DNA from: Actinoallomurus bryophytorum
GTDB lineage: Bacteria; Actinomycetota; Actinomycetes; Streptosporangiales; Streptosporangiaceae
Reading direction: 5' to 3'
Assembly: GCF_006716425.1 (NCBI RefSeq)
Contig: NZ_VFOZ01000001.1
Span: forward strand, 4,216,001-4,280,000
Length of the DNA: 64,000 bases
This document shows, in pieces, positions 12,745 to 19,718 of the stretch (within the stretch, counting starts at the first letter, position 1; every line of letters begins with the position of its first letter). The notes below the pieces were generated by a model. It saw nothing but the letters and a program-made list of their open reading frames with translations, had not been told where the DNA came from and searched no databases. The position numbers and the translations under genes were made by a program.

Positions 12745-13116
12745 GGGGGTGATCGGTTTCGACTTTGGTATGTCGAGATATGGGGAAGCGGGCCGAGGGC
12801 TGCGGTTGTGACCTCGTTAATCCTGTGACCGCAAAACAACAAGTGCCAACTCTAAGCGCACTCAGTTCGCCCTTGCCGCCTGAGGCTAGGTAGCGAACTT
12901 GTCAGCCCGGGAGCGTCTCCGACCCGGGGTCTGGCATCGTAAGGAGACTCCACCTGTAGTCCCGGCCGCGGGAACAACGGGAAAAACTAACAGCGGCTGA
13001 GCCTGTCGGCGACACGCCTGCGTGAGCGCCGGGGCTGAGAAAACGACTAGCAGGATGCGCCCGGAGAAGCCCTGTCTTGGTACCGAAGGACGCGGGTTCG
13101 ATTCCCGCCACCTCCA
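12745..13116 (+). ncRNA. ssrA: Transfer-messenger RNA (tmRNA)
   Basis: The 5' end GGGGGTGATCGGTTTCGAC and the 3' end with the T-arm GGTTCGATTCC and acceptor CACCTCC-A pair as the tRNA-like domain of tmRNA (7 bp with one G-U). The tag frame starts at GCC 12845 and encodes ANSKRTQFALAA, followed by TGA at 12881-12883. The ending FALAA marks tagged proteins for proteolysis. CCA is not encoded; the sequence after the discriminator A is CTG. The internal region shows several G/C-rich stems expected of pseudoknots. smpB is 2.5 kb upstream on the same strand. Exact ends are set by pairing and may be off by a base. Confidence 0.96.
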
Positions 13117-13134
13117 CTGTGTCTGCCCGGGGGG
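13113..13134 (+). repeat. Left copy of a 22-bp exact direct repeat at the ssrA 3' end (possible attachment site)
   Basis: 22 bases beginning TCCACTGTGTCTGCC and ending in six G occur here and again at 18579-18600 in the same orientation. The left copy covers the last four bases of tmRNA and the left arm of its terminator. tmRNA 3' ends are common integration sites, but typical att cores reach further into the gene, and no integrase lies between the copies. The DNA between the copies holds the CHAT operon. Confidence 0.6.
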
Positions 13135-13146
13135 ACGACCCCCCGG
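13127..13146 (+). terminator. ssrA terminator
   Basis: Perfect 8-bp stem CCGGGGGG / CCCCCCGG with loop ACGA beginning 11 bases after the mature tmRNA 3' end. Confidence 0.8.
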
Positions 13147-13157
13147 AACCCCCCGAT

Positions 13158-13178
13158 GTGGGGGGCTCCGCCCCCCAC
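13158..13178. terminator. Second hairpin behind ssrA
   Basis: Perfect 9-bp stem GTGGGGGGC / GCCCCCCAC with a 3-nt loop, 12 bases after the first hairpin. It is probably a back-up terminator. Confidence 0.65.
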
Positions 13179-13567
13179 GCCCCCCGCGGGCTGGGGTCGG
13201 AAGAGGCACCCTTGTTCATTCGACGGCGTTGCTCGTCCACCTGCTCTTTGGAGCGGTGGGGGCGGCGCCGTTGTTGTGTTCCGGCGGTGTTGTCCCGGCT
13301 GCGCGGTGTCGCTACGTGTGTCATCCGGCCCGGAACGGCTGACATGCACGGGCATTTGCGTCATGTCCACGTTGAGCGCGACGATTCCCCCTAATCCACG
13401 ACGATGACTGCCTGCGGACGACGTCGGCGAGAGACGGACATCGAGGCGCCTGCTCGCGGCTGGACGCTCCAAGGCAGTCGTTCATCTCAAGTCCTGCCTT
13501 CTTGAAGAGGGATTCATTCGAGGCTTATTGCCGAGTGGTGATCGGTGGTTGATGCATGTCAGTTGGG
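13179..13567. other. Non-coding gap between ssrA terminators and the CHAT gene
   Basis: 389 bp. Open frames are Arg/Pro/Cys-rich and overlap antisense ssrA sequence; none is convincing. No integrase or recombinase remnant could be recognised. Confidence 0.45.
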
Positions 13568-16513
13568 TTAAGGCCCGCTGTGGATCAGGGCCGCCCAGAG
13601 ATCAGGGCGATCGGGATATTCGGTGCGTAGCCCCCTGATGACCTGGTGCAAAGCCAGGGCAGCGTCCGCCGCGGAATGCCCTTGCTTGAGAGCATCGTAG
13701 AAGCGCTGCGAGGCATCGGCAGCGAAGTCGTCCTCCAGCGGCCAGAGGCTGGCCATGACATGACGGAAGCCGGCCAGGTGGAACGCAGAGGCAAGGTTGA
13801 TGGACTCATCGGCGTGGACCAGGCTGCGATGGGCGGTCGAGCAGGCGGACAGGTATGCCAGCTCCGCGTCGGCCAGTTGGAGTCGGCTCACTTCCGGGAT
13901 CGTCAGCATGCCGTCGTTGAGGCGCAGCCCGCCCTTGGACGGTGCGCCATAGTCGGCGGTGGCGTGGCAGGCGAAGTGCACCCAGGTAGCGGCGGGCAGG
14001 GCGGCGCGCACTTCGTCGACGGATGCCCGCCAGTTCAGCAGTGGCGGGATGGCGGGCCGGTCGCGCACCAGGTTGAGGGCCTCTGCGATGGTGCCACGAA
14101 GGTCGGGCAGTCCGGGCGTGTGGGCCAGCGCGACGGTGAGCTGGCGCCGGGCACCCGCTGGGGGTCGGTCGTGTGCGTACGCGAGCATCCGCAGCGTCGG
14201 GATGTAGGAGGAGACGAAGGCGTCCAGCGCGCCGGGCTTACCGGGATGTCCGGCGGCATGTAACGGGAACACCCCGAGTGGGCCGACGGGGAGCCACCAT
14301 ATCCGCTGTGGTCCGTTCGCAGGGGGTAAAGCCTTGCTCACCGGCAGCGCAATCGTCTTCCACAGCCATCCGAGAACCTCCTTGAGGTCTTCTCGCCACA
14401 GCAGCTGAGCCGGGCCGCTAGACGCGCGAATGGTGGAAAGGAGCACCCCGGCCATGGCGGAGATATCGGCCGGTGCCAAGTCCGGTAGGGGGACCGGTAC
14501 GGGATCGCCGTCAGCGCCGATGAGGATGGCGTCAGCTTGCTCGCGGCCCGAATTGACCATGACGACAGTGCCACCGTGGGCAGCGTGCCGTAGTTTGAGC
14601 AGCTGCGGCGTGCACAGGAAGCGGCCGAAGCCGGGCCGTTCGCGGATCTGGCTGACCAGGTTCTCATAGCGGGTCCACAACTCTGCCCGGTTCCCGGCCT
14701 GGCCGGGCGAAGACACGTTGAGCATGTCCCGGACCCGGCGAAAGGAGTCTGCGAAATGGGGCAGTTGCCGGTCGAGTTCGGTGAGGTCGGTGCGAGAGTC
14801 CAGCTGTGCGGCAAGCAGGATTCCCCTACCCAACTCCGCGATCTCGGCCGCACCGGTCGGGTCGCCGATCGCGCAGTGCGCGGCGACGGCCTGGCTCACC
14901 AACCCGGCAAACTCACCGAAGCGGTGCTCTCGGTCCGCCCAGTCGGCTTCTCGCGCGGCGACGGCGGGAAGCAACGTCACCGCCGCGTCCAGCACCTCCA
15001 CTGCGGTGGCGTGGTCACCTATCGCATTCGCGAGCGTGCCAAGGTTTCCTCCGGCTTGGACCCGGGCTCTAGGCGAGGCGTTCCGTGCGGTGGACAGCCG
15101 GCCGATGAGGGCGCGCACCGTAAGCTGATCGATGCCTTTCCTGCCTGGCTCAGCCCGCAGGTAACCGGCCGCGAGCTGGGAGAGCACGGAGGGCAGTTCC
15201 GGATCCCCGTCCGGGGTGGCCGCCGCCGCCCGTCGCAGCGCCGCAAGCCCCTCGGTCAAGTCAGTGTTCAGGCCGGTTCGATCGTAGCGGTTAAGGCGGC
15301 ACCTGCCGAGGTTGCCCAGTCGGGCGTACAGGCGCCGGTCGCCATCTGGGGTGGCGGCCACGGCGCGTTCGCACAGCGCGATCGCCCGGCCCGGATCGCT
15401 GGCCTCGACGGCGGTGGCGAGGTTGGACAGCCGCACCGCCAGTCTCGGATGATCGTCCGGGGTAGCGGCCACCGCCTGCTCAAGCAGTTCGACGGAACGT
15501 TTGAGGTCGCTTGGTGTCCTGCTGAGCTCGAAGCGACGTGAGTAGATCATGCCGGCGTTGGCCAGAATGGCAGTCCGGTGGTCGGGGTCGGCCGGCAGGC
15601 TCGTCAGTGCCCGGTCCAGCAGGGCGACCGCCCGGTCCAGGTCACCGGCGGAGCCTCCGTGTCGGTAGCGCTCGCTGTAGGCGAGGCCGAGGCTGGACAG
15701 CGTGGCATGGTAGCCGGGCGCCCGCGGGGCTATCGCGATCGCCTGCTCGTGGCAGTCGATCGCGTGGTCCAGGTCGGCGGGCAGTCCGTGATTCGCGAAC
15801 CGCTCACGGTAGGCCACGCCCAGCTCGGTCAGCCTTTCCGCGCTCTCGGACACCGGCACGGTCGTGGCCACAGCTAGCTCGAGATATGTGATCGCCTGGT
15901 CGATGTCGTCGGCATCGCCGTCGCGTGCGTAGCGTGATCTGTGATCACGGCCGAGCTGGGCCAGCTGGGCGCCCGGCAGGGACAGCTGCGACCGGTAGTC
16001 CTCTGGGGGTCGGTGAGCCCATGACCAGGTGCGTTGGCGGGGTGAGGTGAGTGCGGGCGGTTCGCCCGCGCAGCGCAGACAGTCGCTCATCGGCGAGGCA
16101 GGCGACGCGCCGCCGAGGGAAGTAGTCAGCGGTCCACCGCACTGGCGACAGAAATCCATTTTCATCTCGGCCAGAGTGCCCGGGGCCTGAGGGTTGCCCT
16201 CGTATGCGGCCCGCGCCAAGTGGGCTGCGGCTTGCTCGGAAAATCCGACCGATTGAAGGGCCATGCCTAGGCCGTTACGAGCATCGCGGTGGCCCGGCTC
16301 GAGATAAACACATCGTGCGAAAGGAATCAGCGCGCCTCCGATATTCCCGGAATTGAACCGGCTGACACCGAGGAGGAAATGGCTGTTCGGCGCGTTGGGT
16401 ACAAGCTCGATCGCGGACTCGAACGCCGCGATCGCCTGTGGATATCTTTCCAGCTGATAAGCCGCCTTGCCCTTCTCGAAGAGCTTCTCGGCTCGACGCT
16501 CTGCAGATTTCAT
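13568..16513 (-). CDS. TPR-repeat CHAT-domain (caspase-like) protease
   Basis: A 981-residue protein, last gene of a three-gene operon. The start at ATG 16513 overlaps the upstream TGA as ATGA and opens MKSAERRAEKLFEKGKAAY, the first TPR helix; a longer frame of 28 more residues is less likely. Order of parts: two or three TPR units (about 1-115), an embedded zinc ribbon C122xxC125...C145xxC148, then at least eight TPR-like units of the actinobacterial 'YxxRFxxxGxxxDLDxAI' type (about 170-600), then a C-terminal CHAT domain. The predicted catalytic dyad is His850 (WVHFACHATAD) and Cys891 (LSACSTAH). CHAT proteases are clostripain/caspase-fold peptidases, such as those acting with gasdermins or type III-E CRISPR. 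The substrate here is unknown; the two co-transcribed proteins are the obvious candidates. Confidence 0.92.
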   Translation of the reverse strand: MKSAERRAEKLFEKGKAAYQLERYPQAIAAFESAIELVPNAPNSHFLLGVSRFNSGNIGGALIPFARCVYLEPGHRDARNGLGMALQSVGFSEQAAAHLARAAYEGNPQAPGTLAEMKMDFCRQCGGPLTTSLGGASPASPMSDCLRCAGEPPALTSPRQRTWSWAHRPPEDYRSQLSLPGAQLAQLGRDHRSRYARDGDADDIDQAITYLELAVATTVPVSESAERLTELGVAYRERFANHGLPADLDHAIDCHEQAIAIAPRAPGYHATLSSLGLAYSERYRHGGSAGDLDRAVALLDRALTSLPADPDHRTAILANAGMIYSRRFELSRTPSDLKRSVELLEQAVAATPDDHPRLAVRLSNLATAVEASDPGRAIALCERAVAATPDGDRRLYARLGNLGRCRLNRYDRTGLNTDLTEGLAALRRAAAATPDGDPELPSVLSQLAAGYLRAEPGRKGIDQLTVRALIGRLSTARNASPRARVQAGGNLGTLANAIGDHATAVEVLDAAVTLLPAVAAREADWADREHRFGEFAGLVSQAVAAHCAIGDPTGAAEIAELGRGILLAAQLDSRTDLTELDRQLPHFADSFRRVRDMLNVSSPGQAGNRAELWTRYENLVSQIRERPGFGRFLCTPQLLKLRHAAHGGTVVMVNSGREQADAILIGADGDPVPVPLPDLAPADISAMAGVLLSTIRASSGPAQLLWREDLKEVLGWLWKTIALPVSKALPPANGPQRIWWLPVGPLGVFPLHAAGHPGKPGALDAFVSSYIPTLRMLAYAHDRPPAGARRQLTVALAHTPGLPDLRGTIAEALNLVRDRPAIPPLLNWRASVDEVRAALPAATWVHFACHATADYGAPSKGGLRLNDGMLTIPEVSRLQLADAELAYLSACSTAHRSLVHADESINLASAFHLAGFRHVMASLWPLEDDFAADASQRFYDALKQGHSAADAALALHQVIRGLRTEYPDRPDLWAALIHSGP

Positions 16514-17625
16514 GATTCTTCGGCAACCGGGGTGCTCAATCCTGCTCGCTGTATCCTGGCGATCATCCGTTTGAGGCATATCTGACACAAGAGCCATTTG
16601 TCGCCTGGGCGAGGCGGAGACAGCGGTGCGCTGTCGATGATTCCGCTAGCGCGGAACTCCTCAAATCTCGCTCTTCCCACGGAGCCCGCGGTCTCCCGCC
16701 GGTAGATCTTCTTCGCGCACAGGTCGCAGGAGTCCACGACTTCGGGCTGCTCGGCGGACGCCGGCCAGCGACCGAAGACGTGCTCCCAGGCCTTAGCGGC
16801 CACCTGGACACATTCGCTCGGATCTACCGGGCCGCACTTGGGCGGGCTGACTTCGCTGACGGCGTGCGACCGTGCCTCGTCCCGTTTGATCAAAAAGAAC
16901 TCGCTGCAGTCCTCGCAGATCAGCCATGGGGTCCTGGAGCTGGCTACGTGCTGCAGCATCCTGGCGAACATGAGCAACTGCATGTGTTCGTCCCATTCGG
17001 CGTCGTCTTCCATCATATGGGCGCGAATCTTCGTGGCGTACAGTCGCCAGTACGCCTCCGACACCACGACGTCAGCGGTCGCGAGGTAGTAGCCCTGAGC
17101 ACGGTCCAACGGCGCGCTACAGGAGTCACAACGAGATGTGCTGCCAGTGGGACCGGCCAAGGTCTGCGGCGAGGACGGTCGGTGGCCAAAGATGTATTCC
17201 CATGCCGCGCCGGCGACCACGGCGCATTCGTTCGGATTCACCGGGCCGGACTTGCGCGGGCTGACTCCGCGAACGGCGTACGACCGCGCCTCGTCCCGCT
17301 CGAAATCGAAGAACGCGCTGCACTTCTCGCAGATCAGCCACGGAGCCTCGTTACCGGCCACACTAGTAAGTAGCGTATGAAACGCGGCTTGTTCATCCAG
17401 TCCGGCAGCGTTGCCCCTGGGCGTCCCGACCATGTCCGCCATGATCTTGAGGGGCTCGATATGGTTCCGCCAGAAGGGCTCTGACATGACGATATCGGTG
17501 GTCGCGACGTAATAGCCTTGCGTGCGGTCTAAGTTCACGCCGCAGCAGTCGCAAGAACCAACGGATGGGCTGCCGTCCGTATTGTTCAAATTATGGCCAG
17601 ATTTCCTGCTTTTGAACCAGCCCAT
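16510..17625 (-). CDS. Protein with three tandem CxxC...CxxC modules, middle gene of the CHAT operon
   Basis: A 371-residue protein I cannot assign to a family. It contains three copies of a two-half zinc-binding module: Cys25/28 with Cys99/102, Cys166/169 with Cys237/240, and Cys300/303 with Cys347/350. Modules 1 and 2 are close repeats. Each opens LDRTQGYYVATTDIV or LDRAQGYYLATADVV, carries PWLICEKC or PWLICEDC, and closes with RDEARSYAV or RDEARSHAV. The third is shorter. ATG 17625 is preceded by GGAAGGG and overlaps the upstream gene by 40 bp; a start 15 codons earlier is possible. The stop overlaps the CHAT start as ATGA, so synthesis of the two is coupled. Likely a soluble adaptor, sensor or protease substrate. 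Confidence 0.8.
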   Translation of the reverse strand: MGWFKSRKSGHNLNNTDGSPSVGSCDCCGVNLDRTQGYYVATTDIVMSEPFWRNHIEPLKIMADMVGTPRGNAAGLDEQAAFHTLLTSVAGNEAPWLICEKCSAFFDFERDEARSYAVRGVSPRKSGPVNPNECAVVAGAAWEYIFGHRPSSPQTLAGPTGSTSRCDSCSAPLDRAQGYYLATADVVVSEAYWRLYATKIRAHMMEDDAEWDEHMQLLMFARMLQHVASSRTPWLICEDCSEFFLIKRDEARSHAVSEVSPPKCGPVDPSECVQVAAKAWEHVFGRWPASAEQPEVVDSCDLCAKKIYRRETAGSVGRARFEEFRASGIIDSAPLSPPRPGDKWLLCQICLKRMIARIQRAGLSTPVAEES

Positions 17626-18410
17626 AACGCCCTTCCATCCCGGAACAACGCGTACTTTACGGAGCGCCATCGCCCGGCGCCGACATCCCAGTGAAGTTCG
17701 GCACCGCGGACGTCTTCGGCGGTCAGGTCGAGGTCAATGGCGGCCAACCTGGCCGCGTCGGTGAAGTCGGCTGGCAGCACCAGCGTCGTCCTCGTCGACT
17801 CCGGCAGGACAACGTCAAGGTCGGTGCGGGCGTGCCGGTGATTGCGCAACAGGCGAATGCGCCCGATCGCGCGAGCGGCCGATTCTCCCAGTGACTCGCC
17901 GAGCTTTGTCGCGAATGCCTCTGCGAACGGCCCGAGGAACTTGACCGTAACGAATCCGACGGCTAGCTCCACGAACAGGTCCGCCCGATACGACACATTG
18001 CTACGGAAACCTGACTTATAGTATTCGTCTGACCTAGCATCCTGAAACGAGGCGAACCATTGCGTCTCTTCAGAAGAATCAAGGAGAAAATCTCGCCAGG
18101 AACCGTCCTGGCTCGCCAGCTCATCCAATTCCTTCGGGTTCAAGCCAAGCACCGTCAGCACCTGGTCATCGCTGTCGCGGTCGCCAACCTCAACGGCGAG
18201 CTGCTCGGCCTGCCTGCAGATATAACGGCCCTCACCGACACGATGGGCGTTGAGCAGCGCCTGGCCGAGCGTGCTGAGCGCACGCGCCTCGCCGGCGCGG
18301 TCGTCCCGGTCCCGTGCGTCGGTGACGGCACACGCGGCCGCTTCGATCGCGGAATCATCCCTTGCCATGACCCAATTGTGACGCAACCACTGCCTGGCGG
18401 AGACGTCCAC
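17586..18410 (-). CDS. TPR-like protein with amphipathic segment, first gene of the CHAT operon
   Basis: Up to 274 residues. GTG 18410 gives the longest form; ATG 18368 (MARDDSAIEAAACAV) is an alternative, and neither has a clear ribosome site. The N-terminal ~80 residues look like one or two TPR units (ARALSTLGQALLNAHRVGEG, then CRQAEQLAVEVGDRD). The middle has a hydrophobic/amphipathic stretch (FVELAVGFVTVKFLGPFAEA) that could insert into or lie on a membrane. The C-terminal ~85 residues are mixed alpha/beta (VVLPESTRTTLVLPADF ... WDVGAGRWR) without a family I can name. It overlaps the next gene and is probably co-transcribed with it. A pore-forming or membrane effector released by the CHAT protease is a possibility, not shown. 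Confidence 0.7.
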   Translation of the reverse strand: MDVSARQWLRHNWVMARDDSAIEAAACAVTDARDRDDRAGEARALSTLGQALLNAHRVGEGRYICRQAEQLAVEVGDRDSDDQVLTVLGLNPKELDELASQDGSWRDFLLDSSEETQWFASFQDARSDEYYKSGFRSNVSYRADLFVELAVGFVTVKFLGPFAEAFATKLGESLGESAARAIGRIRLLRNHRHARTDLDVVLPESTRTTLVLPADFTDAARLAAIDLDLTAEDVRGAELHWDVGAGRWRSVKYALFRDGRALWAGSKAGNLAII

Positions 18411-18573: not shown

Positions 18574-19361
18574 TCAGGTCCACTGTGTCTGCCCGGGGGG
18601 CCAGTCGCCGTCGAGGGAGGTCAGCTCCGCGTAGACCTCGAAGAACCGTCGTGCCTCGGCCGGGGGCGAGGTGGACCACACGTGGGCGAGGTCGACCTCG
18701 GCCCACATGTAGGACACGGCCGGGTCGATCAGCGCGGGCCGGCCGCCCGGGGTGGCCATGAGGCTCTGTGCCCACAGATCGCCGTGCGTCAGGCATGGCG
18801 GACGGTCCGGCAGCAGGTCGGGCAGCCGGTGGCACAGCCGCTCCAGCGCCGCGCGGTCTCCGGCGTCGAGTGCCGCCTCGACGCGGGGCTGGCCGACCAC
18901 CGAAGCAGCCGATGCCGGGTGAAGAACGCAAAGCCGTCGTCGTCCCAGGTGTTGACCTGTCGGCGGCGGCCCAGCCAGTTGTCGCGGTGCCATCCGAAGC
19001 GAGGGTGGGTCGTACTCGTGTGCAGGCGGGCGAGTGCGTGTGCGAACTGCTCCCAGAAGGGCTCACTGCGCGGCCTCGGCCGGAGTACGGACAGCACAAG
19101 CAGTTCCCGGTCCGCCAGGATGACCTCGGGTGTCGCCATCCCGCCGAGCTCACGCAGGGCGGCCAGCCCTTCGGCCTCGGTGACGAAGACGTCGTCTCCC
19201 GGTGCGTCGGCGAAGGCCTTGACGAACACCGGCGGTGCGTTCCGGCGGGTGGCTATGCCCGCGAGCGCCGCGACCCCACCGGTCGCCGGCTCCACCGCGA
19301 CGACGTCGCGCATCCCGGCCTGGAGCAGGCACTCGAGCAGGTACGTCGCCGAGCGCACCAC
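18574..19361 (-). pseudogene. Fructosamine kinase family gene, frameshifted and 3'-truncated
   Basis: Reads as a ketosamine/fructosamine kinase (APH-like fold) in two frames. The N-terminal part starts at GTG 19361 behind an AGGAGG ribosome site 8 bases away, and runs through VFVKAF, TEAEGLAALRELGG and FGWHRDNWLG to FFTRHRLLRW. The rest, QPRVEAALDAGDRAALERLC with the catalytic THGDLW and LIDPAV, continues in another frame. The shift lies near 18888-18900 and would be repaired by one extra G. The protein stops soon after YAELTSLDGDW, where homologues usually continue for about 30 residues; the end coincides with the 22-bp repeat. So the 3' end was probably removed when the neighbouring segment arrived. 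A sequencing error could explain the frameshift but not the truncation. Confidence 0.75.
18579..18600 (+). repeat. Right copy of the 22-bp direct repeat
   Basis: Exact second copy of the sequence at 13113-13134, same orientation, 5.4 kb away. It directly abuts the truncated 3' end of the fructosamine-kinase-like pseudogene; read on the minus strand it adds PPGQTQW to that protein before a stop. Confidence 0.65.
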
Positions 19362-19718
19362 GTCGGGCCCCTCCTGTCCGGGGTGATCGTTTCGCCAGAT
19401 CCTATGCGGACGACACCCGGCCCCTCCCGAGGATCGGCCTCCGGCCCAGGGCCAGGCGACACGGCATGCCACGGTCCGGTCGCTGCGCTCTCCCGCTGCT
19501 GGAGGCCGACGGCTATCCCGGGCGAGTGACCGCCCGGCTAGCCGGGCTCGTGTTCGGCCGCCTGGAGCCGCTGCCACTTGGCCATCGACTGCGGCCGTCC
19601 GGGCCACTGACTTACTCCGCTATCGGCTCGTACTCGTTTGCCGATGAGCGGATATCTACGCTGCATGGATTCGGCGGGAAACGTCCTGGGGTGTCGTGGT
19701 CAAGCTCGGCCGCGATCG
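19362..19718. other. Non-coding gap
   Basis: 357 bp between the pseudogene start and the 3' end of the imine-reductase-like gene. Open frames here lack ribosome sites and family resemblance. Confidence 0.4.

Follow-up and report, generated by a model that had tools for sequence, protein, structure and literature searches.

Why should a gene for a caspase-like protease lie beside ssrA, joined by overlap to two genes of no recognised family? The question is raised by a 64,000-nucleotide stretch of the Actinoallomurus bryophytorum genome (contig NZ_VFOZ01000001.1, positions 4,216,001 to 4,280,000, the whole of which is called the window here), where the open reading frame (ORF) listing gives an operon of three overlapping genes, g1, g2 and g3, on the minus strand from 18410 to 13568. 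CHAT proteases with co-encoded partners are one known bacterial route to protease-triggered immunity or cell death, and to our knowledge few substrates of these enzymes have been recognised (Csx30 in Craspase). Judged from its sequence, the operon looks akin to bacterial systems known for cell suicide or phage defence. Our tentative reading, to which we give a probability of roughly 0.45, is that it is a laterally acquired, mobile CHAT-protease conflict operon in which a constant core, g2-g3, is preceded by an exchangeable, membrane-associated first gene.

The paired genes g2 and g3

The C-terminal part of the g3 protein is a CHAT domain (PF12770, E-value (E) 1.2e-44, 153.3 bits against a gathering cut-off of 24), and TPRs are recognised as well. 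His850 lies within HFACH and Cys891 within SACST, which we take to be the His/Cys catalytic dyad of CHAT proteins. Both residues and the four cysteines of the ribbon are kept in a relative in genome G219 of the same family, and the motifs HLACH and SACST are kept in a Kutzneria metagenome-assembled genome (MAG). A first-pass annotation, made from the letters and ORFs of the window, had described a 981-residue TPR-CHAT protease with this dyad and its own zinc ribbon, and at the level of sequence that description holds. Between the window and G219, g3 is 56% identical (537/965 residues) and its CHAT part 65%; dN/dS is about 0.30 by our own NG86 script, at a dS of 1.25 that is near saturation. 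The gene appears to be under purifying constraint between species.

The pairing of g2 with g3 in other genomes is real and very rare. The g2 protein (P0001) had matches in 3 of the 297 genomes of the order, and a profile of its module (A2) matched 3 of the 341 genomes of the family, namely the source genome, G219 and G244. Among 296 genomes of the phylum the source genome alone gave a strong match to this profile, two weak partial matches (E 0.007 and 0.009) being dropped as chance-level. A scan of genome contigs added one further g2 locus, in the Kutzneria MAG (L006). The same TPR/ribbon/CHAT gene adjoins g2 at all three loci where g2 has several modules (window, G219 and Kutzneria MAG), so that co-conservation, whose absence the first-pass annotation had named as telling against its operon, is present for g2 and g3. 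The MAG has a g2 relative with one long and one short module, and 31 bp after it comes a g3 homologue that opens with the same TPR-ribbon part. The G219 copy is spread over two contig ends. One carries the long module and the beginning of the short one; the other carries the remainder of the short module, with a g3 homologue within 10 bp after it. The two contig ends probably belong to one locus.

Among these three loci the window alone holds an unbroken copy of the pair. The break in the G219 copy of g2 falls close to both contig ends, at a 10-bp inverted repeat, as an insertion sequence (IS) within the third module would produce. The MAG copy has a stop in g2 and a protease split over two frames, and by reading its membrane gene is damaged too; assembly error is a possible cause of these breaks, and three neighbouring metabolic ORFs are whole despite the broken frames nearby. 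Parts of the pair also occur singly. G244 encodes a lone single-module g2-like protein, and no CHAT domain was found by tblastn in the 10 kb examined around it. In G332 the TPR-ribbon part of the g3 type stands alone, and a tblastn search of the 14 kb examined around that gene found no g2 and no CHAT.

The g2 protein carries six CxxC motifs (at residues 40, 114, 181, 252, 315 and 362), which form the three CxxC...CxxC modules seen in the first pass, two long and a shorter third. The long modules are 53% identical in pairwise comparison (66/125) and 48% in a five-row alignment, and all three modules are predicted to bind metal. Three loci share the linker ahead of the third module (GRWPA..QP), from which G219 departs once. 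The g2 protein matched no Pfam or NCBIfam family above its cut-off, and the possibility raised earlier that g2 belongs to a known housekeeping family found no support in the libraries searched. Searches with the module found nothing credible among PDB sequences by profile (best E 0.68) and nothing in 14 candidate stretches of viral contigs, and plasmids searched for g2 gave none. Structure prediction of the modules had also been proposed in the first pass. AlphaFold2, given five rows of which two were the window's own modules, returned a confident model of module 2 (best of five models with a predicted local distance difference test score (pLDDT) of 88.3 and a predicted template modelling score of 0.83; the five span pLDDT 74.4-88.3). 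Foldseek gave 24 matches of this model to PDB at E <= 10 and 0 at E <= 0.001, with a best query TM-score of 0.36; against viral structures there were 64 and 0, respectively. With no significant match in these two collections, the modelled fold appears so far unrecognised.

More distant matches to g3 are abundant. Its N-terminal 240 residues match 172 of the 341 family genomes at E <= 1e-3, and a broad occurrence was rejected on the ground that the source genome, G219 and G332 alone exceed the generic TPR level (next best 6.5e-10). In the class, 37 of 153 genomes matched the A9 profile at E <= 1e-8, the source genome alone better than 3e-15, and nine plasmid records matched the N-terminus in the TPR part only, at a coverage of <= 43%. 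Three more CHAT genes are present in the source genome; as g2 occurs there at one place only, none of the three has an adjoining g2. One of them, a TPR-CHAT gene at about 5.69 Mb (contig C1; L084, 4530-9602), is accompanied on the same strand by an ORF read as sigma-70-like and by a subtilase gene, which has a PADLOC subtilase match of E 7.7e-9.

The first gene and the layout of the operon

The coordinates, strand and overlaps of the three ORFs were reproduced from the ORF listing (Table 1). The g1/g2 overlap is 85 bp if g2 starts at its first ATG (17670) and 40 bp if it starts at 17625, which is preferred because relatives of g2 open with (M/V)GW; an ATGA at 16513-16510 is common to g2 and g3. 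As the first overlap is at least 40 bp, g1 and g2 are probably co-translated in the window. The frames of g1, g2 and g3 are uninterrupted, and the catalytic and cysteine residues are intact. A lower GC content at about 16.3-18.5 kb, first noticed by eye, was confirmed by measurement: most 500-base windows of 16.25-18.5 kb have 0.60-0.64, compared with about 0.63-0.73 on both sides. Third-position GC is 0.72, 0.75 and 0.77 in g1, g2 and g3, and mostly 0.8-0.97 in the neighbouring called genes.

Table 1. Features of the operon and of its surroundings, in window coordinates.
Feature	Position	Strand	Remarks
ssrA (transfer-messenger RNA)	12745..13117	+	
22-bp direct repeat, copy 1	13113..13134	+	starts with the last 5 bases of ssrA
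g3	13568..16513	-	981 aa; order TPR / four-Cys ribbon / TPR / CHAT
g3 CHAT domain	13574..14380	-	residues 712-980 of 981; His850, Cys891
g3 four-Cys ribbon	16070..16150	-	CRQC 122-125, CLRC 145-148; kept in relatives
g2	16510..17670	-	386 aa from first ATG; start at 17625 (371 aa) favoured by relatives
g2 short third module	16576..16728	-	CDLC ... CQIC; present in both other multi-module loci
g2 long module 2	16737..17145	-	CDSC ... CEDC; modelled
g2 long module 1	17173..17565	-	CDCC ... CEKC
g1	17586..18410	-	274 aa; TPR-like start, hydrophobic and amphipathic segment, C-terminal domain with predicted strands
g1 hydrophobic segment	17922..17978	-	residues 145-163, mean hydropathy 1.71
fructosamine-kinase-like pseudogene	18574..19607	-	two frames, C-terminus cut at repeat
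22-bp direct repeat, copy 2	18579..18600	+	makes abnormal 3' end of kinase pseudogene

The amphipathic stretch originally noted in g1 resolves into the moderately hydrophobic segment followed directly by an amphipathic one (residues 167-186). No Pfam or NCBIfam family was matched by g1 above its cut-off, and PADLOC gave no match. The N-terminus is TPR-like, and nearly all of the g1 matches in 103 of the 341 family genomes (the source genome included) fall in that part; a broad occurrence of g1 was rejected, the C-terminal domain being matched, beyond the source genome, in G214 and G258 alone among the family genomes. The G258 match is weak (E 7e-5) and was missed by plain tblastn. In 178 genomes of the class a C-terminal profile (A6) found the source genome and two weak partial matches, and a profile search of PDB sequences with this domain found nothing credible, the best hit being a designed minibinder (E 0.013). 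The second half of g1, comprising the hydrophobic segment and the C-terminal domain, has a relative in a 490-residue Streptomyces plasmid protein, WP_266501686.1, present in three plasmid records. This protein (L088, 4179-5651) combines g1-like N- and C-terminal parts with an internally repeated middle, and searches of Pfam, NCBIfam and PADLOC at the limits applied gave no match for it.

The three-gene unit proposed in the first pass thus holds for g2 and g3, which are paired at all three multi-module loci found, but not for g1. By tblastn, g1 was not found at the other two g2-g3 loci (stretches L006, L069 and L070) and was rejected as a member of the conserved core, and no CHAT domain was found with that of g3 as query in the 10-15 kb around each g1 relative (G214, G258 and the plasmid protein). 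Other genes stand before g2 in those loci. In L006 the ORFs upstream of g2 carry two hydrophobic segments apiece and are read as a single membrane protein in two frames; the G219 locus has a protein with three such segments, separated from g2 by a transposase-like ORF. The different membrane-type genes before g2 suggest an exchangeable first-gene slot, on the strength of three loci. Positions 4639-6678 of L006 hold the g2 relative and, upstream of it, the membrane ORFs and a small protein with a sub-threshold zinc-ribbon match. Near the g3 relative of G219 (contig C80; L069, 1006-4270) are an ORF read from its translation as tyrosine-recombinase-like, a DUF5677 gene and an AAA_21 gene, the last of which matches many defence ATPases (best AriA, 1.5e-24).

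Position between direct repeats at ssrA

The first-pass annotation had placed the operon next to ssrA. That position stands, and the operon is now seen to lie between direct repeats in a region that varies between species. Exact 22-bp copies bracket the operon, and 100 dinucleotide shuffles of the window gave none, even with three mismatches allowed. The repeat takes in the 3' end of ssrA, a mark by which genomic islands are recognised; such islands at ssrA are known in Dehalococcoides from a report consulted in part (PMC3146451). The 21-bp core of the repeat occurs exactly at two places only in the 9.47-Mb assembly and at two more with one mismatch, and it was not found within one mismatch in seven other genomes of the genus. 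On the far side of the operon, copy 2 supplies the last codons of a kinase pseudogene whose Pfam match stops at position 251 of 288; the closest kinase relative among 31 genomes searched (G013) extends 37 residues further. Since the kinase is truncated at the repeat, the DNA to the right of the operon breaks off precisely where it meets a copy of the ssrA-end sequence. No integrase was identified between the repeats, where the gene caller gives g1-g3 and a 105-aa ORF starting inside ssrA; short and antisense ORFs lay outside the family scan.

The surroundings of ssrA were compared in five of the seven other genomes of the genus (G231, G214, G204, G195 and G201). The genes just upstream of ssrA are common to all five, and the downstream content differs in G231, G214, G204 and G195; the G201 contig stops just after ssrA and gives no downstream comparison. 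In G195 a 66-aa partial homologue of gene 46776 of the window comes directly after ssrA, with homologues of 48214 and 50625 behind it, the segment between ssrA and 46776 being absent. At the same place G214 shares a single gene with the window segment, 23278 (79% identity). These differences define a species-variable segment from 13.2 to about 46.7 kb of the window, of which the operon is the ssrA-proximal unit. None of g1, g2 or CHAT was found by tblastn in the ssrA stretches of G231, G214, G204 and G195.

The repeat itself has a wider context. A dispersed repeat of about 85-110 bp lies at the 3' end of ssrA (window 13088-13200) and follows ssrA in G231 too; a 601-bp query over it found 27 places in the source genome, including ssrA, and many in the genus.

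Function and relation to known systems

If the operon is a mobile conflict system, g3 would act as a caspase-like protease whose N-terminal TPRs and four-Cys ribbon most probably serve for docking or sensing. The string of small, predicted metal-binding modules in g2 would make it the dedicated partner of g3, as adaptor or regulator or as substrate, perhaps bound at the g3 ribbon, and the first gene, here g1, would be an exchangeable membrane-associated partner, either an effector or a membrane sensor acting with the protease. Infection or stress may switch the core on, whereupon CHAT would cleave its partner, g1 or g2, and the cell would be harmed or arrested. This reading is built on the gene order, the intact dyad and ribbon, the g2-g3 pairing, the membrane-type ORFs upstream in the other two loci and the flanking repeats, and we count in its favour the tyrosine-recombinase-like ORF and the AAA_21 gene near the G219 locus. 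In a bolder form, which we consider doubtful, the operon would be a caspase-like immune system of a new kind. Its tandemly duplicated four-Cys module, with a fold not seen so far, would serve a TPR-ribbon-CHAT protease as dedicated sensor or substrate, an exchangeable gene for a membrane executor would stand in front, and the whole would have moved as an integrase-less cassette of 5.5 kb at the 3' end of ssrA.

Several observations weigh against the conflict-operon reading. Only three multi-module g2 loci were found, two of them damaged. The examples of an exchangeable first gene are weak, with a transposase-like ORF between the G219 membrane gene and g2 and the Kutzneria gene in two frames; the hydrophobic segment of g1 is borderline, and the g1 structure model is poor (pLDDT 50.8), too poor for its PDB fold search (238 matches, 0 significant) to yield a verdict. 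PADLOC assigned g1-g3 to no known defence family, the best being a weak PDC-M14A match of g2 at E 0.016. The variable segment has approximately 31 further called genes; a defence-family scan of 7 of them found one partial mad2 match (E 3.6e-21), probably a generic hit of an ordinary S-adenosylmethionine methyltransferase. The 22-bp sequence need not be an att site, as it belongs to the dispersed repeat family, with two one-mismatch copies elsewhere. An att insertion in one simple step is likewise unproven, since what comes right after the ssrA copy is part of the dispersed repeat that also stands behind ssrA in G231.

Part of this evidence would also suit a two-gene protease-substrate system in which g1 is a chance neighbour and cutting of the linkers between the g2 modules frees single active modules, comparable to Csx30 cut by Csx29. 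We consider this unlikely. The one constant partner of g3 is indeed g2, which is modular and has its linker before the third module conserved in three loci, and g1 was found neither at the other loci nor with CHAT around its relatives; the g1/g2 overlap nevertheless points to co-translation of g1, G244 has a single module and, in the 10 kb examined around it, no CHAT domain, and cleavage of g2 by g3 is a prediction from sequence. Less probable, in our view, is a regulator of signalling or development that plays no part in phage defence; proteins with CHAT and TPRs are common in these genomes, and this one would be species-specific by chance. The three further CHAT genes, none with g2 and one beside a subtilase gene and a sigma-70-like ORF, would fit such a role, but mobile cargo accounts better than a housekeeping function for the extreme rarity, the low third-position GC, the flanking repeats and the decay of the other copies. 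That decay, by stop and frameshifts in the MAG and by an IS-like break in G219, together with the adjoining kinase pseudogene, could instead mark the operon as a decaying or selfish mobile remnant with no present function, which we regard as highly improbable given that the window frames are all open, the catalytic and cysteine residues are intact and g3 shows signs of purifying constraint between species.

The operon gains its interest from the combination of a known catalytic domain, unrecognised partners, unusual rarity and a clean mobile frame, with one intact copy in what was searched. A modular partner of no recognised fold is tied to one TPR-CHAT protein, and the repeat-bounded position suggests how such operons might move without an integrase of their own. 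With three genes in 4.8 kb, the operon is compact enough for cloning and direct assay of cleavage and phage sensitivity.

A literature search on CHAT with TPR, zinc ribbon, gasdermin, EACC1 and conflict systems found no title or abstract start about this operon, not all papers having been opened. CHAT-type protease operons with bacterial gasdermins as the membrane-active partner were reportedly described by Johnson et al. in 2022; g1 has no PADLOC match, and its model is too poor for a verdict on its fold. According to the parts of the reports consulted, CHAT is listed for Borvo and for type III-E CRISPR, where Csx29 cleaves Csx30 (PMC8195603, PMC10952713, PMC10028731). Borvo likewise has a CHAT domain in a defence protein, BovA, in the part of the source seen (PMC10952713), but g3 matches no PADLOC family at E <= 1, BovA included, whereas weak BovA matches come from two of the further CHAT genes in the genome. 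With Craspase (Csx29/Csx30) the operon shares a TPR-CHAT protease encoded with orphan partner proteins, and NCBIfam NF041237 aligns to the CHAT part of g3 (E 2.3e-9), but at 36.6 bits against a cut-off of 300; g3 also carries its own ribbon, and the libraries used gave no family for g1 or g2, a comparison that did not take in Csx30 directly.

In favour of our reading, a related layout is known from conflict systems already described, in the part of the source consulted, as a caspase-superfamily gene with a 5' partner containing a transmembrane segment, the EACC1-caspase pairs being a membrane-associated two-gene layout of actinobacteria (PMC7159879). The window operon departs from these pairs in its extra middle gene, g2, and in the C-terminal place of the caspase-like domain in g3 (712-980/981), which is N-terminal in the EACC1 systems as far as that source was seen. 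For g1 there was no Pfam EACC1 match at E <= 1, in a library whose inclusion of that model is unconfirmed. It resembles them, as partly seen there (PMC7159879), in being actinobacterial and in its order, with a 5' gene for a protein with one hydrophobic helix and alpha/beta extensions and a 3' gene of the caspase superfamily.

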